DNA from: Trinickia fusca
Lineage (GTDB): Bacteria; Pseudomonadota; Gammaproteobacteria; Burkholderiales; Burkholderiaceae
DNA length: 64,000 bases
Reading direction: 5' to 3'
Assembly: GCF_003628145.1 (NCBI RefSeq)
Contig: NZ_RBZV01000003.1
Span: 124,001-188,000, forward strand
Shown: positions 6,796 to 16,482 of the stretch, one piece after another
Layout: every line of letters starts with the position of its first letter
Numbering within the stretch: position 1 is the first letter of the stretch
The notes under the pieces: generated by a model
Database searches by the model: none
Seen by the model: the letters and a program-made list of their open reading frames with translations, nothing else
Told to the model about the DNA's origin: nothing
Position numbers and translations under genes: made by a program

Positions 6796-7353
6796 CTACA
6801 CGTGCTGCGGCAGCATCACCCGTGCAACGACGGCCAAAAAATGCACGACATCCGGCGTGCTCATACCCGGATCCTTCGCCACGTCGTCCCACAGACGCAG
6901 ACGTACGGCATCGGTCGCATACGGCTTCGCGATGAACGCCTGCGCCTCGCTCGCCGAGAACACGCCGCCTTGCAACACGAGGCTGCGCTTCGAATCGGGC
7001 GACAAACGCTCGAAGTAGCCCTCATCCACCGCGCACAGATAGCGCTTCGCATCGACATGCAGACGAATCGGCTCGAGCACGCTATCAGGCAGCACGGCCC
7101 GCAGGAACGGCAGCACGAAGTACTGATGCTGATCGTCGATGCCGTGTTCGCTCGGCGTCTCGCCTTGCAGATTCAATAGATGCCCGAGATCGTGCAGGAA
7201 CGCAGCGGCAACGAGCGCGTCGTCAGCGCCGTCCTGCTGGGCGAGCGAGCCGCTTTGCAGCGCGTGCGCACGCTGCGTGACAGGCTCGCCGCTATAGGCG
7301 ATATCGCCGTGCCGTTCGAACAGATAGCCGATATCGTCGAGACTCAACGCCAT
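6796..7353 (-). CDS. PhnZ-type HD-domain protein of phosphonate operons
   Basis: 185-residue HD-domain protein, last gene of the phnA-phnY cluster, starting 6 nt after the phnY stop. It belongs to the HD subfamily linked to phosphonate-degradation operons and resembles PhnZ, the mixed-valent di-iron oxygenase that cleaves 2-amino-1-hydroxyethylphosphonate to glycine and phosphate. The spacing of candidate iron ligands fits PhnZ closely: H30, H54-D55 (FLHDLGH), H76, H99 and D156 or D157. It also has a Y20-x2-E23 pair like the active-site Tyr/Glu pair of PhnZ, and K103 after H99. The alpha-ketoglutarate hydroxylase PhnY* that feeds PhnZ elsewhere is absent here, so the substrate is uncertain. 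Alternatives are a non-oxygenase phosphohydrolase or scavenging of hydroxylated AEP. Confidence 0.82.
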   Translation of the reverse strand: MALSLDDIGYLFERHGDIAYSGEPVTQRAHALQSGSLAQQDGADDALVAAAFLHDLGHLLNLQGETPSEHGIDDQHQYFVLPFLRAVLPDSVLEPIRLHVDAKRYLCAVDEGYFERLSPDSKRSLVLQGGVFSASEAQAFIAKPYATDAVRLRLWDDVAKDPGMSTPDVVHFLAVVARVMLPQHV

Positions 7354-7359
7354 GCTGCT

Positions 7360-10238
<2,879 letters not shown>

Positions 10239-10247
10239 TCATGCGGG

Positions 10248-10979
10248 TCAGCCCGCCATGTCTTCTCCCGCCTGCCGCGCATAGGCTTCGTGCGCGCGCC
10301 GTCTGCCGCCGCTCACATGCTCGTGCATGAGCTGCGCCATACGCTCGCCATCCTGCGCCCCGAGCGCGGCCAGCATCGCGCGATGTTCGGCCAGCGAATG
10401 CTCGATGGCCCCCGCATGCGCACCCAGCGCGGCACGGCGGAACAGATTGAGTTCGCCGACCAGGCGTCGATACGTGTCGTACAGCTTCGCGTTGCCAGCG
10501 GCCGCGACGATCGCGTCGTGAAACTCGACGTTCGCGCGCGCATAGCTATCGCGGTCACTCGCCGCGCACGCAGCCTCCATGGCCTCGACGCAGCGGTCCA
10601 AGCGAGCCAGACCGATCGCATCGATGCGCGCGCAAGCGAGCCGGCATGCGCCGGCTTCCAGCACCGCGCGCAATTCGTAGATCTCGTCGGCCTCGGCCAG
10701 CGAAACCGTCCGCACGAACACGCCCCGATTCTTCTCGATGCGCACTAGGCCTAGCTCTTCGAGCGAGCGAAACGCCTCGCGCACAGGCCCGCGCGACACA
10801 TGCAGACGCGCGGCCCAATCGGCTTCGGTCAGCTTCTCGCCCGGCGCAAGCGCACCTTCGGCGATGTGGCGCTCGATCGCCTCGCGCACGAGCGTCGTCA
10901 GCGAACGACTGCGGACCACCGCGATCGGATCGGTCAGGTCGATTTGCATATTTTCGGTCATATCGCCAATTTTTGCCAC
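10248..10979 (-). CDS. phnR: GntR/FCD-family regulator of phosphonate use
   Basis: 243 residues: an N-terminal GntR winged helix-turn-helix (about residues 25-90, including EADWAARLHVSRGPVREAFR) and a C-terminal FCD all-helical ligand domain (ELRAVLEAGACRLA to the C-terminus) with metal-ligand-like H and D residues (FHDAIVAAAGN). It is the kind of GntR regulator found beside AEP operons in Burkholderia, and probably controls phnA-phnY, phnSTUV or phnW. The effector is unknown. The start is taken as GTG 10979, with GGAA upstream; ATG at 10961 or 10949 are alternatives. It lies between the phnSTUV unit, closed by a terminator, and phnA. Confidence 0.85.
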   Translation of the reverse strand: MAKIGDMTENMQIDLTDPIAVVRSRSLTTLVREAIERHIAEGALAPGEKLTEADWAARLHVSRGPVREAFRSLEELGLVRIEKNRGVFVRTVSLAEADEIYELRAVLEAGACRLACARIDAIGLARLDRCVEAMEAACAASDRDSYARANVEFHDAIVAAAGNAKLYDTYRRLVGELNLFRRAALGAHAGAIEHSLAEHRAMLAALGAQDGERMAQLMHEHVSGGRRRAHEAYARQAGEDMAG

Positions 10980-11059: not shown

Positions 11060-11920
11060 TTAGTCCTGGCGGCGGCGCGGCGCGCGGGCCGCGATGAGCA
11101 TCAGTGCCGCGAGCGACACGGCCAGCAAAATCAGTGACAGTGCGGATGCAGGCAGGTAATAACCGCGTTCGACCTGTCCCACCACGACGATCGGCACCGT
11201 CGCAAAGCCGGGCGGATAGACGGTCAGCGTCGCACCAAGCTCACCGAGCGACAACGCGAAGCCCAATGCAAGACTTGCGCGAATGGCCGGCACCAGTTGC
11301 GGCAGCACGACACGCAGCAGCACCATCGCGGGTGGCGCGCCGAGGCTCGCGGCCGCTTCGCGCAGCACGGTGAGCTCGGGACGCAGCGCGGCTGCGGCGC
11401 AGCGATAGCAAAACGGCAACACGAGCGCGAGCTGCACGAATACGACAATCGCGGCCGAGCTCGACAGGTCGAGCGGGGCCTTGTGATAGGCGATCAGCAC
11501 GGACAGCCCCAACACGACGCTCGGCACCCCGTTGGGCATCATCGCAATCGTGTCGACGAGCGCGCCGAGGCCGCGGCGATCGCGCCCTTCGAGCGCGAGC
11601 GCGAGCCACAGGCCCAGCGCCGTACCGAGCACGGCGACGCCGAAGCCGATTTCGAGGCTCGTGGCGATCGCATCGAAGTCGCTGCCGTCGAGGCGTTCGA
11701 ACCAGCGCAGACTAAAGCCATCGGGCACGATCGTGCCGGACCAGTGCGCGGCGACGCTCGAAAGCGCCACCACCGCGACAGGCAAGACGAACAGCCAGAC
11801 ACACAGCAACGCGGCGCAGGCCAGCAGCGTGGCGCTCACCACTCGCCCGAGCTTGCAGTGAGGCACGCGCAGCGCGGCAAGCGCGGGGGCGGCAACGGTC
11901 CGGATCGGATCAGCGGCCAC
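11060..11920 (-). CDS. phnV: AEP ABC transporter permease PhnV
   Basis: 286-residue inner-membrane permease of the binding-protein-dependent ABC family, with about six transmembrane helices. The EAA loop is visible as REAAASLGAPPAMVLLRVVLP. It is the second permease of the AEP importer, working with PhnU, the ATPase PhnT and the binding protein PhnS. The start chosen is GTG 11920, which has GGAG 7 nt upstream and overlaps the phnU stop by 11 nt, giving tight coupling. The frame is open further upstream, but that part lies inside phnU. A terminator follows immediately. The substrate assignment rests on the operon context. Confidence 0.9.
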   Translation of the reverse strand: MAADPIRTVAAPALAALRVPHCKLGRVVSATLLACAALLCVWLFVLPVAVVALSSVAAHWSGTIVPDGFSLRWFERLDGSDFDAIATSLEIGFGVAVLGTALGLWLALALEGRDRRGLGALVDTIAMMPNGVPSVVLGLSVLIAYHKAPLDLSSSAAIVVFVQLALVLPFCYRCAAAALRPELTVLREAAASLGAPPAMVLLRVVLPQLVPAIRASLALGFALSLGELGATLTVYPPGFATVPIVVVGQVERGYYLPASALSLILLAVSLAALMLIAARAPRRRQD

Positions 11921-12851
11921 GGGACACTCCTTGCAACGAACGACGATTGACGCGGCGATACAGCGCATACAGCGACAGCGACATCGCCAGCATCACAACC
12001 GCGCCGGCCGCGGCCGTCGGCAGATCGAGATCGACGGTGGCGGAACTGTAGATCGCGACAGGCAGTGTCACGAGATGCGCGCTGCCGAGCACGAGCAGAA
12101 TGCCGAACTCGTTCAGCGTCAACAGAAAACACAGGATCGTGCCCGCCGCGATGCCGGGCCACGCGAGCGGCAAAATCACGCGCAGCGCCACCATCGAGGC
12201 ATTGGCACCGAGACTGCGCGCCGCTTCGACGAGCCGCAGGTCGATCAAAGCGAACGAGGCCAGCGTCGGGCGCACGACGAACGGCGCATAGAACACGACC
12301 TCGGCCAGTATGACGCCGCCGGCACCGAACAGAAAATCGAGCGGCGGTTGCTGCAGATTCAGCAACCGTTGCAGACCGATGCTGACAGAGCCTTGCGAGC
12401 CATACAGAAAGATCAGCGTGAACGCGACGAGAAACGACGGGAACGCGACGAACAGTTCGAGAAACCGCGTCACGAGGCTTGCGCCCGGAAACGGCTTGAA
12501 GAAAAGCAGCGCCGCCAACGCGACGCCGAGCACCGACGCAATGCCCGCGCTCGCGGCCAGAATCCACACCGTCGTGCCGATCACGCCACGCGCATCGGGA
12601 TTGGAGAAGAACTTCGCATACGCGTCCAGCGTCAAGCCATGCGCACCGCTCAGGCTCAACAACACGAGCCTGAGCAGCGGATACGCGACGAGCGGCGCGA
12701 GCACGACGAGTGCGATGAAAAGCAGATGACCTTGCGCGATCCGTTCACGGCGACGGGCCTGCGCCGCGTGTGCGGCCGCACTGGCCTGCCGGACGTCGTC
12801 GCTCGACGCGCCGGCTTGCGGCGCGGTATCAGGGCTGAACCAGGACGACAT
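11910..12851 (-). CDS. phnU: AEP ABC transporter permease PhnU
   Basis: 313-residue permease with an N-terminal cytoplasmic tail rich in Ala, Gln and Arg (about residues 1-40) followed by six or more membrane helices. The EAA signature is EAARSLGANASMVALRVILP, contacting PhnT. It is one half of the transmembrane channel for 2-aminoethylphosphonate uptake. ATG 12851 is chosen because GAGG precedes it at good spacing; an in-frame ATG at 12863 has no Shine-Dalgarno. The start overlaps the end of phnT by 23 nt and its stop overlaps phnV, so the three membrane and ATPase genes are translated as a coupled block. Confidence 0.9.
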   Translation of the reverse strand: MSSWFSPDTAPQAGASSDDVRQASAAAHAAQARRRERIAQGHLLFIALVVLAPLVAYPLLRLVLLSLSGAHGLTLDAYAKFFSNPDARGVIGTTVWILAASAGIASVLGVALAALLFFKPFPGASLVTRFLELFVAFPSFLVAFTLIFLYGSQGSVSIGLQRLLNLQQPPLDFLFGAGGVILAEVVFYAPFVVRPTLASFALIDLRLVEAARSLGANASMVALRVILPLAWPGIAAGTILCFLLTLNEFGILLVLGSAHLVTLPVAIYSSATVDLDLPTAAAGAVVMLAMSLSLYALYRRVNRRSLQGVSRGR

Positions 12852-13929
12852 CGTCAGCCTCATAACGCAATGACACGCGCGCGCCCTTCTCGGGCGTCAT
12901 ACCCTGCCCGCGCGGTGCCGTGACGAGCACCGGCGTCGCCGGCATCGCATCGAGCACGACGGATACCGACAACACCGCGCCGTACCAGTCGACGGATGCG
13001 ATCACGCCATGCAAGTGGCCTTCGCCGAGCGGCACGATGCGCAGTGCCTCGGGGCGCAGGCATGCGAGCCGCTCACGCTCGCTGTAGCGGGCATCGCCGA
13101 GCGCGAACGCGACGCGCGGCGGCAGCAGGTTCGCCGCGCCCAGATAGCGCGCGACGAATGCGTCGATGGGAGTGTCGTACAGCTGCTGCGGCGTGCCGAG
13201 CTGCGCGATGCGGCCATCGCGCATCAACAGCGTGCGATCGGACAGGACAAGCGCATCGTCCTGATCGTGCGTGACGCAGACGATCGTGAGATTCGGCAAG
13301 CGCTCATGCAGCGCCTTGATTTCAGAGCGCACCGACGCACGCAGGTTCGCATCGAGCGCCGACAACGGCTCGTCGAGCAGCAACACGTCGGGCTCAATGA
13401 CGAGTGCACGCGCGAGCGCCACGCGCTGCTGCATGCCGCCCGACAACTGCGCGGGCATCACGTGCTCGCAATCGCTGAGCTGCACGAGCTTGAGCGCATC
13501 GGTCACACGGCGCGTGACTTCGGCGCTGGGCAAGCGCCGCGCGCGCAGCCCGAACGCGACGTTCTCGAACACGTTCAGGTGCGGAAACAGCGCGTAGCTT
13601 TGAAACAGCAGCCCGAGGTTGCGCTTGTGCGGCGGCACGTGCGTCAGATCTTGACCGGCAATGGTCAGGTTTCCGCTGACGCTCGTGGCCTGCGCGAACC
13701 CGGCGATGAACCGCAGCAGCGTGGTCTTGCCACAGCCGCTGCGGCCCAGCACCGTCAGCAACTCGCCGCGCCCGATCGACAGCGACAGATCGTCGAGCAC
13801 CGTACGCGTGCCGAAACGCACGCTCAGGTGGTCGATCTGCACGCCGCCGGGCGCGCCCGCGTGCGTCTTCTCGTGCGCCGCACGCCCGATATTCGGCGCG
13901 CCGGAGCTGGCAAGGATGGCGGTGTTCAC
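12829..13929 (-). CDS. phnT: AEP ABC transporter ATP-binding protein PhnT
   Basis: 366-residue ABC ATPase of the spermidine/iron/phosphonate importer class. Walker A is GRSGCGKTT (62-70), the signature is LSGGMQQRVALARAL, Walker B is DVLLLDEPLSALD and the H-loop is CVTHDQDDAL. A C-terminal TOBE-like regulatory region follows from about residue 270. An extra 28 or so residues precede the domain (MNTAILASSGAPNIGRAAHE onward). The start is GTG 13929, with AGGAGG about 10 nt upstream; no ATG fits. It lies 31 nt downstream of phnS and overlaps phnU. It powers AEP import in the cytoplasm at the inner membrane. Confidence 0.93.
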   Translation of the reverse strand: MNTAILASSGAPNIGRAAHEKTHAGAPGGVQIDHLSVRFGTRTVLDDLSLSIGRGELLTVLGRSGCGKTTLLRFIAGFAQATSVSGNLTIAGQDLTHVPPHKRNLGLLFQSYALFPHLNVFENVAFGLRARRLPSAEVTRRVTDALKLVQLSDCEHVMPAQLSGGMQQRVALARALVIEPDVLLLDEPLSALDANLRASVRSEIKALHERLPNLTIVCVTHDQDDALVLSDRTLLMRDGRIAQLGTPQQLYDTPIDAFVARYLGAANLLPPRVAFALGDARYSERERLACLRPEALRIVPLGEGHLHGVIASVDWYGAVLSVSVVLDAMPATPVLVTAPRGQGMTPEKGARVSLRYEADDVVLVQP

Positions 13930-13960: not shown

Positions 13961-15055
13961 TTACTGCTTCGGCTTCACGACATCGAGCTGCTTGCCCGAC
14001 GAACCGATCACGTCGTTCTTCCAGCGCGCAGTCCAGTCGGCCTTCTTCGCCATCACCATGTTCCAGTCGACCGGAATCAGCTTGACGCCCGCGATCGCCT
14101 GCTTGACCGCCTCACCGTTCTTGCCGGCGAGCTTCACGTCGGTACGGCCCGGGATGCCGAAGATGTCCGGCACCTTGGCCTGCACTTCGGTCGACATCAG
14201 GTAGTCGATCAGTTTCTTGCCTTCAGCTTGGCTCGGACCGTTCTTGATGAGGCCGATGGCATACGGCAGTTGGAACGTCGTCGGCTGGCCGCCCGCGGTC
14301 GCCGCGAGGAAGATCGGCTTCAGCGTCAGGCCGCCATTCGCAGCATCGTCGAGGTCCATCTGCAGGTCGCCGTTGGCCACCGAGATCTCGTTGCGCGAGA
14401 GCAGCACGTCGAGGTAGCCCGTGCCCTTCGTATGGAACTTCGCGCTCTGCTCGAGCTTCTTCAGGTAGTCGAACGCCTTGTCTTCGCCCATCAGCGACGT
14501 CGTCAGGATGATGACGGCCATGCCGTCGCCGGCCGTGGCCGGGTTCGAGTAGGCGATCTTGCCGCTGTAGTCGGGATGCAGCAGGTCAGCGAACGTCTTC
14601 GGCTGGCTCTTCACGACCTCAGGATTGATCGCGAACGAGAAGTAGTTGTTGACGAACGTCGCCCAGGCGCCGTTCGAGGCCTTCGCGATCGCCGGCACGT
14701 TCGTGTAGTTCACGCTCTGATACGGCTGCAGGAGACCGCTCTGGTCGGCTTGCTGAATGAACGGCGGCAGCGTGACGATCACGTCGGCCTTCGGCGCATC
14801 CTTCTCGATCGTCGCGCGGTTCACGACTTCGCCGCTACCGGCCGTCACGATGTTGACCTTCACGCCTTCCTGCTTTTCGAAGGCCGGCAGGACATCCTTG
14901 TACAGGTTCTCGAGCCCGTCCGCGGTATAGAGCACCACCGCGCCTGCCGCATGGGCCGGCATGGCGAGGGTTTCGAACACCAGGGCTGCGGCCAGGGCCG
15001 GCAGCAGCTTGCGCACGAAACCGGCGCTCGCACGAAGGGGATGCTTGCTTGTCAT
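13961..15055 (-). CDS. phnS: AEP ABC transporter periplasmic binding protein PhnS
   Basis: 364-residue extracytoplasmic solute-binding protein with a Sec signal peptide (basic start, hydrophobic LLPALAAALVFETLA, cleavage near AHA). The mature protein begins AGAVVLYTADGLENLY, typical of family 1/6 binding proteins related to iron and 2-AEP binders. Later blocks such as NPATAGDGMAVIILT and GTGYLDVLLSRNEISVANGD fit PhnS. It delivers AEP to PhnTUV. GGAGAGAG lies just before the ATG at 15055. It is first in the minus-strand phnSTUV operon and divergent from phnW across a 302-bp control region. Confidence 0.92.
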   Translation of the reverse strand: MTSKHPLRASAGFVRKLLPALAAALVFETLAMPAHAAGAVVLYTADGLENLYKDVLPAFEKQEGVKVNIVTAGSGEVVNRATIEKDAPKADVIVTLPPFIQQADQSGLLQPYQSVNYTNVPAIAKASNGAWATFVNNYFSFAINPEVVKSQPKTFADLLHPDYSGKIAYSNPATAGDGMAVIILTTSLMGEDKAFDYLKKLEQSAKFHTKGTGYLDVLLSRNEISVANGDLQMDLDDAANGGLTLKPIFLAATAGGQPTTFQLPYAIGLIKNGPSQAEGKKLIDYLMSTEVQAKVPDIFGIPGRTDVKLAGKNGEAVKQAIAGVKLIPVDWNMVMAKKADWTARWKNDVIGSSGKQLDVVKPKQ

Positions 15056-15357
15056 GTCGCTCTCTCCAAGGCATAAGCCCGTTTGCCGGGCAACCCGATT
15101 GTTTCCCGTAGTGATTCAGAGCGCCCGGGCACATCGCAACGCTGCATCGATTGCAGATTGCCGACAATCCGGACGGCGCGATCGCGATGGCGCTCCATCG
15201 AATCGGCAACGCAAGGATCACAGGGTTTGGTGACAAAGCGATGACGACGCCCACAAATTCCTCAAAATGACACACAATGCCACTAAATTGCACATCGCTT
15301 CGGATCCACTTTTTGATCCCCTCTTTGTGACGACTGCTTTTGAACGGAGACCGTGTC
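15056..15357. promoter_or_regulatory. Divergent phnS-phnW control region
   Basis: This 302-bp gap must hold the promoters of both the importer operon (minus) and phnW (plus). An AT-richer tract spans about 15230-15325, in contrast to the GC-rich surroundings. Within it, GGATC and GATCC form an inverted repeat around a T-rich spacer (about 15302-15319), and there are repeated TGACA/TTGCACA-like words at about 15267-15295. A CTGCA-TCGAT-TGCAG imperfect dyad lies at about 15143-15157. No consensus for a Pho box or for the GntR regulator could be assigned with confidence. Confidence 0.5.
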
Positions 15358-16482
15358 ATGCCTGAAAACGAACCCATCCTGCTTACACCGGGACCGCTGA
15401 CGACCGAGCCCGCCACCCGCGCCGCGATGCTGCGCGACTGGGGTTCGTGGGATGCCGCCTTCAATCGTCTGACGCAAAGCGTCTGCGCCGATCTGCTCGC
15501 GATCGCGCATGGCGAAGACGAATTCGTCTGTATTCCTATGCAAGGCAGCGGCACATTCTCGGTCGAGGCCGCTCTCGGCACGCTCGTGCCGCGCGACGGC
15601 TGCGTGCTCGTTCCCGTCAACGGCGCCTACTGCACACGCATCGTGCGCATCCTCGAGCGGCTAGGCATTGCCCATGTGACACTGCCGCTCGCCGACGACG
15701 AGCCCGTCACCGCCGCAGCGATCGAGGCCGCCTTCAAAGAGCACGCGCACATCACGCACGTTGCGCAGGTTCACCTGGAAACGAGCGCGGGCCTGCTCAA
15801 TCCGCTCGAGGCGATCGCAGAGGTATGCGCGCGGCATGACAAGCGCCTCATCGTCGATGCGATGAGCTCGTTCGGCGCGCTGCCGATCGATTTGCGCAAG
15901 GGCGGCATCGACGCGTTGGTCTCGGCCAGCGGCAAGTGCCTCGAGGGCGTGCCGGGCATGGGCTTCGTGATCGCCCGCCGCGCGCTGCTCGAAACGTGCG
16001 AGGGGCGCTCACCGTCGCTTGCCCTCGATTTGCACGATCAGTGGGTTTATATGAAGAAGACGTCGCAGTGGCGCTTCACGCCGCCCACGCACGTCGTCGC
16101 GGCACTACGCGAGGCGCTCGATCGCTTCTTGAAGGAAGGCGGGCGACCGGCACGCGGCGCACGCTATGCACACAACTGTGCAACGCTCGTCGAGGGCATG
16201 GCGGCACTCGGCTTTGTGCCGTTCCTGCCGGCTGACGTGCAGGCGCCCGTGATCGTGACGTTTCATGCGCCCAACGATCCGCATTGGGACTTCGCCGCGT
16301 TCTACGCAGCGGTGCGCGAGGCCGGCTTCATCCTGTATCCGGGCAAGCTCACGCGTCTGGAAACGTTCCGCGTCGGCTGTATCGGCGCCATCGACGAGCA
16401 CGACATGCGCCGCGCCGTGGCCGCCATCGATACGGCGACGAAGCAACTCGGCATTCGCGTGCGCGCCCCCGAACTGGCGTAG
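15358..16482 (+). CDS. phnW: 2-aminoethylphosphonate--pyruvate transaminase
   Basis: 374-residue PLP-dependent class V aminotransferase that converts AEP and pyruvate to phosphonoacetaldehyde and alanine. The N-terminus [19 protein letters not shown] is characteristic. The PLP-binding Asp lies in [11 protein letters not shown], and the Schiff-base lysine is K193 in [12 protein letters not shown]. Other family blocks are [13 protein letters not shown] and [14 protein letters not shown]. The ATG at 15358 has GGAGA 8 nt upstream; an in-frame TTG at 15340 is ignored. It is monocistronic, opposite phnS, and convergent with the DeoR regulator. Because phnX (phosphonatase) is absent and phnY/phnA are present, its product should flow to phosphonoacetate rather than being hydrolysed directly. 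Confidence 0.96.

Follow-up and report, generated by a model that had tools for sequence, protein, structure and literature searches.

A PhnZ/TmpB-type HD-domain protein encoded at the probable end of a hydrolytic phosphonate operon in Trinickia fusca

Among the closest described relatives of the protein considered here are two oxygenases that act on alpha-hydroxyphosphonates: TmpB, an (R)-1-hydroxy-2-trimethylaminoethylphosphonate oxygenase (PDB 6NPA), which is the closest solved structure and has all of its iron ligands in common with our protein, and PhnZ, an (R)-1-hydroxy-2-aminoethylphosphonate (R-HAEP) dioxygenase (PDB 4MLM, 4MLN, 4N71 and 4N6W). As described in PMC8177086, these enzymes carry the ligand motif H...HD...H...H...D and a YxxE loop, the Tyr of which leaves the iron upon substrate binding while the Glu meets the substrate amine. 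PhnZ homologues have been counted as markers of oxidative 2-aminoethylphosphonate (AEP) degradation (for example in PMC9381506), and PMC8316502 reports that phnZ splits into subclades of which the original alone is specific for AEP.

Homologues have also been reported beside hydrolytic phosphonate genes. According to PMC8154272, a phnZ homologue occurs in 24 of 75 phnWAY clusters and in 15 of 1,186 phnWX clusters, never together with pbfA; that report extends this exclusion from clusters to genomes and ties the phnZ homologues of such clusters to a separate processing of R-HAEP. PbfA, an R-HAEP ammonia-lyase, has the same predicted ancillary role, that of letting an AEP operon use R-HAEP (PMC8154272), but is an unrelated PLP enzyme that yields phosphonoacetaldehyde. 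In Achromobacter, a TIGR03276 protein termed PhnHD is likewise linked to hydrolytic phosphonate genes without the hydroxylase PhnY*, and HAEP was proposed as its substrate by modelling, with caution urged before experiments (PMC11203657). Both the kind of observation made here and the explanation that we favor are therefore already in print. Within the literature we could search, in which subscription journals are scarcely covered, we found no assay of a member of the clade to which our protein belongs, or of any member that lacks a hydroxylase partner.

The HD gene and its operon

We analyzed a 64,000-nucleotide stretch of the T. fusca genome, referred to here as the window, in which an open reading frame on the minus strand (positions 6796-7353) runs from ATG to stop and specifies an HD protein of 185 aa. 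The gene starts 6 bases past the phnY stop codon, and the phnY start (8823) in turn overlaps the phnA stop (8820). Its minus-strand position and the gap of only 6 bases after phnY make it very probable that the HD gene closes the operon; judged from gene spacing, phnSTUV-phnR-phnA-phnY-HD would be a single operon. Each of its genes, as well as the divergent phnW, scores above its curated NCBIfam cut-off. In minus-strand order, the features are as follows.

13961..15055, minus strand: phnS, AEP-type substrate-binding protein (TIGR03227, 570.6 bits)
12829..13929, minus strand: phnT, AEP-type ABC transporter ATPase (TIGR03258, 506 bits, cut-off 499.15)
11910..12863, minus strand: phnU, AEP-type ABC transporter permease (TIGR03226, 425.1 bits)
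11060..11968, minus strand: phnV, AEP-type ABC transporter membrane component (TIGR03255, 394.7 bits)
10248..10979, minus strand: phnR-type GntR/FCD regulator (TIGR03338 phnR_burk, 284.8 bits; GntR and FCD domains)
8820..10115, minus strand: phnA, phosphonoacetate hydrolase (TIGR02335, 570 bits; start set at the Met at 10115, frame open to 10211)
7360..8823, minus strand: phnY, phosphonoacetaldehyde dehydrogenase (TIGR03250, 858.6 bits; start set at the Met at 8823, frame open to 9084)
6796..7353, minus strand: HD protein, predicted PhnZ/TmpB-type di-iron oxygenase (TIGR03276; family model, ligands and fold)
15340..16482, plus strand: phnW, 2-aminoethylphosphonate--pyruvate transaminase, divergent from phnS (NF010006, 590 bits; TIGR02326, 493.6 bits)

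A promoter scan found none, and terminator-like matches were weak. The model matches agree with an earlier sequence-only reading of the locus, which had correctly named phnY and phnA (TIGR03250 and TIGR02335; phnW corresponds to TIGR02326) and had seen no alpha-ketoglutarate hydroxylase in the operon, an absence upheld by our NCBIfam scan of the operon genes. The setting differs from that of Achromobacter PhnHD, which according to PMC11203657 neighbors a phosphonatase operon that has HpnW but no phnW, whereas the window gene belongs to a phnSTUV-R-A-Y operon accompanied by phnW.

Family, fold and active site of the HD protein

The HD protein matches TIGR03276 with 242.8 bits (cut-off 214.6, E 1.6e-72) over profile positions 3-179 of 179. 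It falls below the cut-offs of the TmpB model NF049941 (158 bits, cut-off 300), of the model for the hydroxymethylphosphonate dioxygenase PhnZ1, NF052439 (126.9 bits, cut-off 300), and of Pfam HD (17.2 bits, cut-off 22). TmpB (3.5e-33) and PhnZ (4.9e-23) were the sole matches with E < 1 in a sequence search of the PDB. An AlphaFold model built from a 60-sequence alignment had a mean pLDDT of 95, and Foldseek matched it to TmpB (E 1.2e-11) and to R-HAEP-bound PhnZ (3.5e-10), the next match being at 0.086. VIA-align gave Z scores of 25.4 for TmpB, 24.5 for PhnZ and 10.5 for MIOX, with all other listed chains at 8.6 or less. The model superposes on TmpB with an rmsd of 1.9 over 172 residues (37% identity) and on PhnZ with Z scores of 24.5 (4N6W) and 24.3 (R-HAEP-bound 4MLN) at 30-32% identity. 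As modelled, the fold is closer to those of the mixed-valent di-iron oxygenases than to those of HD hydrolases.

The predicted iron ligands are H30, H54, D55, H76, H99 and D156, and the loop is Y20-x2-E23. All eight match the aligned residues of TmpB and PhnZ and do not vary across an alignment of 10 sequences, Y20 and E23 being the equivalents of Y24 and E27 of PhnZ; further positions invariant between the HD protein and TmpB/PhnZ are H58, K103, R104, Q128 and R153. Across 60 aligned family members, H30, H54, D55, H58, H76, H99, K103 and D156 are invariant; Y20 occurs in 90% or more of them, E23 in under 90%. Seventeen checked sites, ligands included, were identical in all 60 rows of a comparison of the window protein with 59 relatives. 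The ligands and the substrate loop are also the same as those of Achromobacter PhnHD in the alignment given in PMC11203657.

The sequence-only reading had proposed a PhnZ-type di-iron oxygenase with ligands H30, H54-D55, H76 and H99 and a Tyr-x2-Glu pair formed by Y20 and E23, and the alignments to TmpB and PhnZ bear out both sets of residues. Its last ligand had been given as D156 or D157; the first choice stands as the invariant position and the second falls, as both TmpB and PhnZ have Glu in place of D157. Two of the outcomes that the reading had set against its own proposal did not occur: no ligand was lost in the alignments, and the protein does not cluster with HD hydrolases by sequence or fold. 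Family models, predicted fold and ligands together argue in silico for the proposed enzyme type.

One residue sets the protein apart from both characterized enzymes, since D101 is Ala in TmpB and in PhnZ. Most betaproteobacterial members have Asp at this position whatever their operon (hydrolytic, C-P lyase or solitary). L112, a C-P lyase locus of an alphaproteobacterium, has Asp too. Asn is found in L092 and Ala in L054, a panel locus; the two phnA/Y loci from alphaproteobacteria (L131 and L117) carry Ala or Glu. We rejected D101 as a mark of hydrolytic context, Asp being found across operon types, and the residue appears mainly to mark a clade. In a set of HD proteins that are mainly alphaproteobacterial (loci L099, L101, L103, L105, L107, L110, L113, L121, L130 and L134), the YxxE Glu is replaced by Ser, Ala or His, and this suggests that their substrate may lack an amine.

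A probable imported substrate and the nearest alternative

In the explanation that we favor, and regard as probable, the HD protein is a mixed-valent di-iron oxygenase that cleaves an imported alpha-hydroxy-aminophosphonate, most likely R-HAEP, to phosphate and glycine. PhnSTUV, which is named for AEP, would judging by context bring in the alpha-hydroxy-aminophosphonate, likeliest R-HAEP. On binding of R-HAEP, Tyr20 would leave one iron and Glu23 would hold the amine, O2 would bind the freed iron of the FeII/FeIII center, and the C-P bond would be cut oxidatively to release phosphate and glycine. The presumed metal content, Tyr/Glu loop movement and oxidative C-P cleavage are carried over from PhnZ and TmpB, and R-HAEP is suggested as the substrate by Glu23, by the AEP-type importer and by the lack of a hydroxylase. 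The enzyme would form a side branch parallel to PhnW-PhnY-PhnA, which would act on AEP itself, and would have no need of PhnY*. Direct use of imported 1-hydroxy-2-aminoethylphosphonate was the first of two options in the sequence-only reading and appears in silico to be the best one. The same reading had called the reaction open, a point on which published R-HAEP proposals exist (PMC8154272 and PMC11203657); its interpretation as a whole is partly supported.

The strongest competitor, which we consider improbable while giving it more weight than any other, keeps the oxygenase chemistry and supposes another substrate, be it an N-methylated form of 1-hydroxy-AEP, hydroxymethylphosphonate or a compound akin to these. 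Phylogeny and genomic company bear on it from both sides. We built a wider tree of 92 rows, after 19 of 111 had been dropped as near-copies, short contigs or odd frames; it is a quick tree in which long branches were flagged. TmpB and the HD proteins encoded next to TmpA form one clade in this tree (support 93), PhnZ groups with two proteins whose genes adjoin MFS genes, and the T. fusca protein belongs to a large clade, chiefly betaproteobacterial, that contains neither PhnZ nor TmpB. Since that clade holds neither enzyme and D101 replaces their Ala, the substrate could differ from theirs. The HD protein differs from TmpB in clade, in D101 and in having no recognized TmpA partner, and from PhnZ in clade, in its hydrolytic operon and in having no PhnY* beside it or recognized in the genome. 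The plasmid-borne HD proteins closest to PhnZ, those of Hymenobacter and Aquicella (L135 4935-5531 and L136 4998-5573), are encoded directly after an MFS transporter gene and with no annotated hydroxylase adjoining.

Across 100 loci whose contexts we surveyed (20 from our genome panel and 80 named, with at least one contig in both sets), HD genes adjoin phnA/phnY, C-P lyase genes with phnCDE, HpnW with PhnX-like genes, TmpA (five loci: L116, L118, L120, L122 and L132) or no such genes. Among annotated plasmids, HpnW-family and phnX genes lie by HD in Comamonas endophytica, and a C-P lyase operon does so in Variovorax sp. SRS16; in Pandoraea, HD occurs in a phnR-phnA-phnY locus without phnSTUV (L064, L066 and L067). 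A substrate other than R-HAEP draws support from TmpB being the nearest solved relative, with a TmpB model that outscores the PhnZ1 model (158 versus 127 bits), from the clade's own marker D101, and from the HpnW-type FAD enzymes (TIGR03364) that HD adjoins in other bacteria, which we take to be PbfD. PbfD acts on N-methyl-AEP, as reported in PMC10574752. Against it, the protein lies far below the 300-bit cut-offs of both the TmpB and the PhnZ1 models, TmpB and the TmpA-adjacent proteins form their separate clade, and Glu23 speaks for an amine and hence against hydroxymethylphosphonate as the main substrate.

Retention of HD without phnA/phnY and the search for a hydroxylase

Direct use of an imported alpha-hydroxy-aminophosphonate may also be weighed against a quite unlikely reading in which the substrate arises within the hydrolytic route, as an intermediate or on the side, be it phosphonoacetaldehyde, phosphonoacetate or 1-hydroxy-phosphonoacetaldehyde, the last thought to be a slow PhnW product from R-HAEP. 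The tight operon with phnY and phnA, with its 6-base gap, is consistent with such a role, as is the inference made in PMC8154272 that R-HAEP is transaminated by PhnW, yielding a compound on which PhnX cannot act. Co-occurrence points the same way. In a panel of 299 genomes of the host family (Burkholderiaceae), searched at E thresholds of 1e-10 for HD, 1e-60 for PhnA, 1e-40 for PhnX, 1e-100 for PhnW and 1e-150 for PbfA, HD was found in 199 genomes, PhnA in 137, PhnX in 46, PhnW in 138 and PbfA in 2, and PhnA accompanied HD in 121 of 199 genomes versus 16 of the 100 without HD. PhnX accompanied HD in 44 genomes. With HD in 199 of 299 genomes, the family is common rather than strange. Both PbfA genomes carry HD, so that one genome may have HD as well as the R-HAEP lyase, and mutual exclusion of the two at the genome level fails in this panel, albeit on small numbers.

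Several observations speak against a substrate from the hydrolytic route. Phosphonoacetaldehyde and phosphonoacetate have neither an amine for Glu23 nor an alpha-hydroxyl. At the thresholds used, 47 of the 199 HD genomes had no match to PhnA, PhnX or PhnW (one of these, G241, has broken phnA pieces). Such genomes are not phosphonate-free, as the C-P lyase protein PhnJ was found in 7 of 10 of them that were tested and, as a partial match at a contig end, in G284, making 8 of 12 tested genomes overall; it is absent from the host genome. A point against the favored explanation is that the hydrolytic operon does not need HD: genus g3 supplied 12 phnR-phnA-phnY loci (from 8 HD-negative and 4 HD-positive genomes), none of which has it, and a PhnS2-type transporter is present at 11 of them.

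The new support offered here is that HD is kept beside the importer even where the neighboring phnA and phnY have been lost. In a sample of 80 panel HD loci, a non-random selection made from listed positions, HD adjoins all or part of phnSTUV in 49; among these, phnA and phnY are intact in 30, missing from 16 and broken in 3 (L038, L169 and L222). Two further loci (L040 and L051) have phnA/phnY beside HD without phnSTUV and 29 have neither, so that the link between HD and the importer is not universal; these 31 loci were counted neither for nor against retention. The survey was anchored on HD, and operons that keep phnA/phnY after loss of HD fall outside its count. The 16 loci with phnSTUV-(phnR)-HD and no phnA/phnY (L202-L211, L214, L216, L219, L221, L049 and L159) require three changes on a careful 60-protein HD tree, one for a clade of 14 and one each for L159 and L216, and the distinction between intact and not intact phnA/phnY requires six on that tree with solitary genes left out. 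The 17 active-site letters are the same in every one of its 60 rows, whatever the state of phnA/phnY. Among the broken cases, which may be draft errors, L169 is the weakest because its transporter genes are also partly broken or missing. In the named P. tuberum locus (L056), phnY has an internal deletion and HD is intact.

Fifteen of these 16 genomes carry phnW and phnX elsewhere, and six of the fifteen also a PhnA, so that the importer could be kept for AEP. They are for that reason weaker evidence on what the importer is for and on whether HD is independent of the whole pathway; they still speak for independence from phnA and phnY beside HD. The strongest single case is Caballeronia concitans (L079, L159 and G131 all denote it), in which phnSTUV-HD stands in a genome without a match to PhnW, PhnA or PhnX and an HD substrate derived from PhnW, PhnY or PhnA is unlikely. 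It is not proof, because that genome also carries a C-P lyase (PhnJ) and four PhyH matches. Persistence of HD without phnA/phnY, and without PhnW, PhnA or PhnX, speaks against PhnW, PhnY or PhnA as the source of the substrate, and for this reason the second option of the sequence-only reading, action on an intermediate of the AEP pathway, is disfavored.

More tentatively, as a possibility to which we give somewhat less than an even chance, the clade may represent a third, functionally separate group of HD phosphonate oxygenases in which importer and single oxygenase make a complete one-step system that needs no hydroxylase, transaminase or hydrolase. If so, the phnSTUV-phnR-HD operon seen in Paraburkholderia (genus g21) and phnSTUV-HD in C. 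concitans would represent its bare form, with the window operon a version combined with phnAY. Selection on the importer would in that case favor uptake of R-HAEP (or of a different natural alpha-hydroxyphosphonate) alongside AEP, and such compounds would be common in the habitats of these bacteria. If many HD members use a ready-made hydroxyphosphonate without a hydroxylase partner, counts of PhnZ homologues would mislead, and R-HAEP-like compounds would have been overlooked as a source of phosphorus. We found no description of phnSTUV-R-HD operons lacking phnAY in the accessible literature on these genes; with importer and enzyme and no adjoining phnA or phnY, they offer a clean genetic system.

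A hydroxylase encoded elsewhere in the genome would instead turn the HD protein into half of a split PhnY*-PhnZ pathway that degrades AEP, a possibility we rate as very slight, just below that of a substrate from the hydrolytic route. The host genome (6.1 Mb, 41 contigs) contains one TIGR03276 gene, two PhyH proteins and one TauD-family protein, and PF05721 (PhyH) matches were present in all 11 further HD genomes searched. Against this reading, the sole NCBIfam match of the first PhyH protein (L002) is a weak one, of 30 bits, to an ectoine hydroxylase model, no NCBIfam model matched the second (L003), and the TauD-family protein (L004) matches arginine/enduracididine beta-hydroxylase models. 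None of the three matched the TmpA or methylphosphonate-PhnY models, and by contig position none lies near the phn operon, which has no TauD-family gene. The TmpA model had no match in the host genome at E 1e-60. The genome-wide search for PhnY* advised by the sequence-only reading recognized none, with the methylphosphonate-PhnY model NF052437 and PF05721 as stand-ins for an AEP-type PhnY* model, of which we found none; only candidates from a loose first pass were scored, and the absence is not absolute.

Among 239 genomes of the host family, none exceeded the cut-off of the TmpA model and none that of NF052437 (500 bits). The 28 genomes that matched the TmpA model at E 1e-60 all stayed under its cut-off (224-345 versus 400 bits), and we presume these matches to be other gamma-butyrobetaine-dioxygenase-type enzymes. 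NF052437 at E 1e-25 matched four, all under cut-off. Three of these, G043, G121 and G200, scored 182-192 bits from contigs that do not carry HD; the fourth, G161, scored 94 bits. Given the 28 sub-cut-off matches and the commonness of PhyH proteins, there is a slight chance that a distant, unlinked hydroxylase supplies the HD substrate. Linkage argues against this, for in the three annotated plasmid examples that have a hydroxylase it sits directly upstream of HD, being of PhyH type in Dietzia and of gamma-butyrobetaine/TauD type in Phyllobacterium and Labrenzia. The remaining reading, that the operon has taken in an HD phosphohydrolase of the ordinary kind, is very unlikely. It fits the general HD fold and the sub-cut-off Pfam HD match, but the oxygenase-type ligand set and YxxE loop speak against it, as do Z scores of 8.6 or less for listed chains other than TmpB (25.4), PhnZ (24.5) and MIOX.

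HD genes also occur alone. Eighteen loci of genus g10 (Caballeronia; L154-L158, L160-L168, L170-L172 and L048) have no phosphonate genes near HD, and its neighbors there are DnaJ-domain and DHA2-type MFS transporter genes, with a transglycosylase match in L048 as well. Median omega among the 18 sequences is 0.13 (153 pairs), indicating purifying selection, and a stop interrupts one copy (L164, from G178). As the synteny was seen within one genus, we do not claim these genes as a phosphonate operon with an MFS importer. In Labrenzia (L142 3953-5388), an alkaline phosphatase family gene follows the TauD-type dioxygenase and HD genes and overlaps the HD end by four bases. Finally, a protein cluster whose member in L111 is DUF5690 (423 aa) recurs near HD in seven loci (L104, L111, L119, L123, L125, L126 and L129), four of which also have HpnW or PhnX-like genes.
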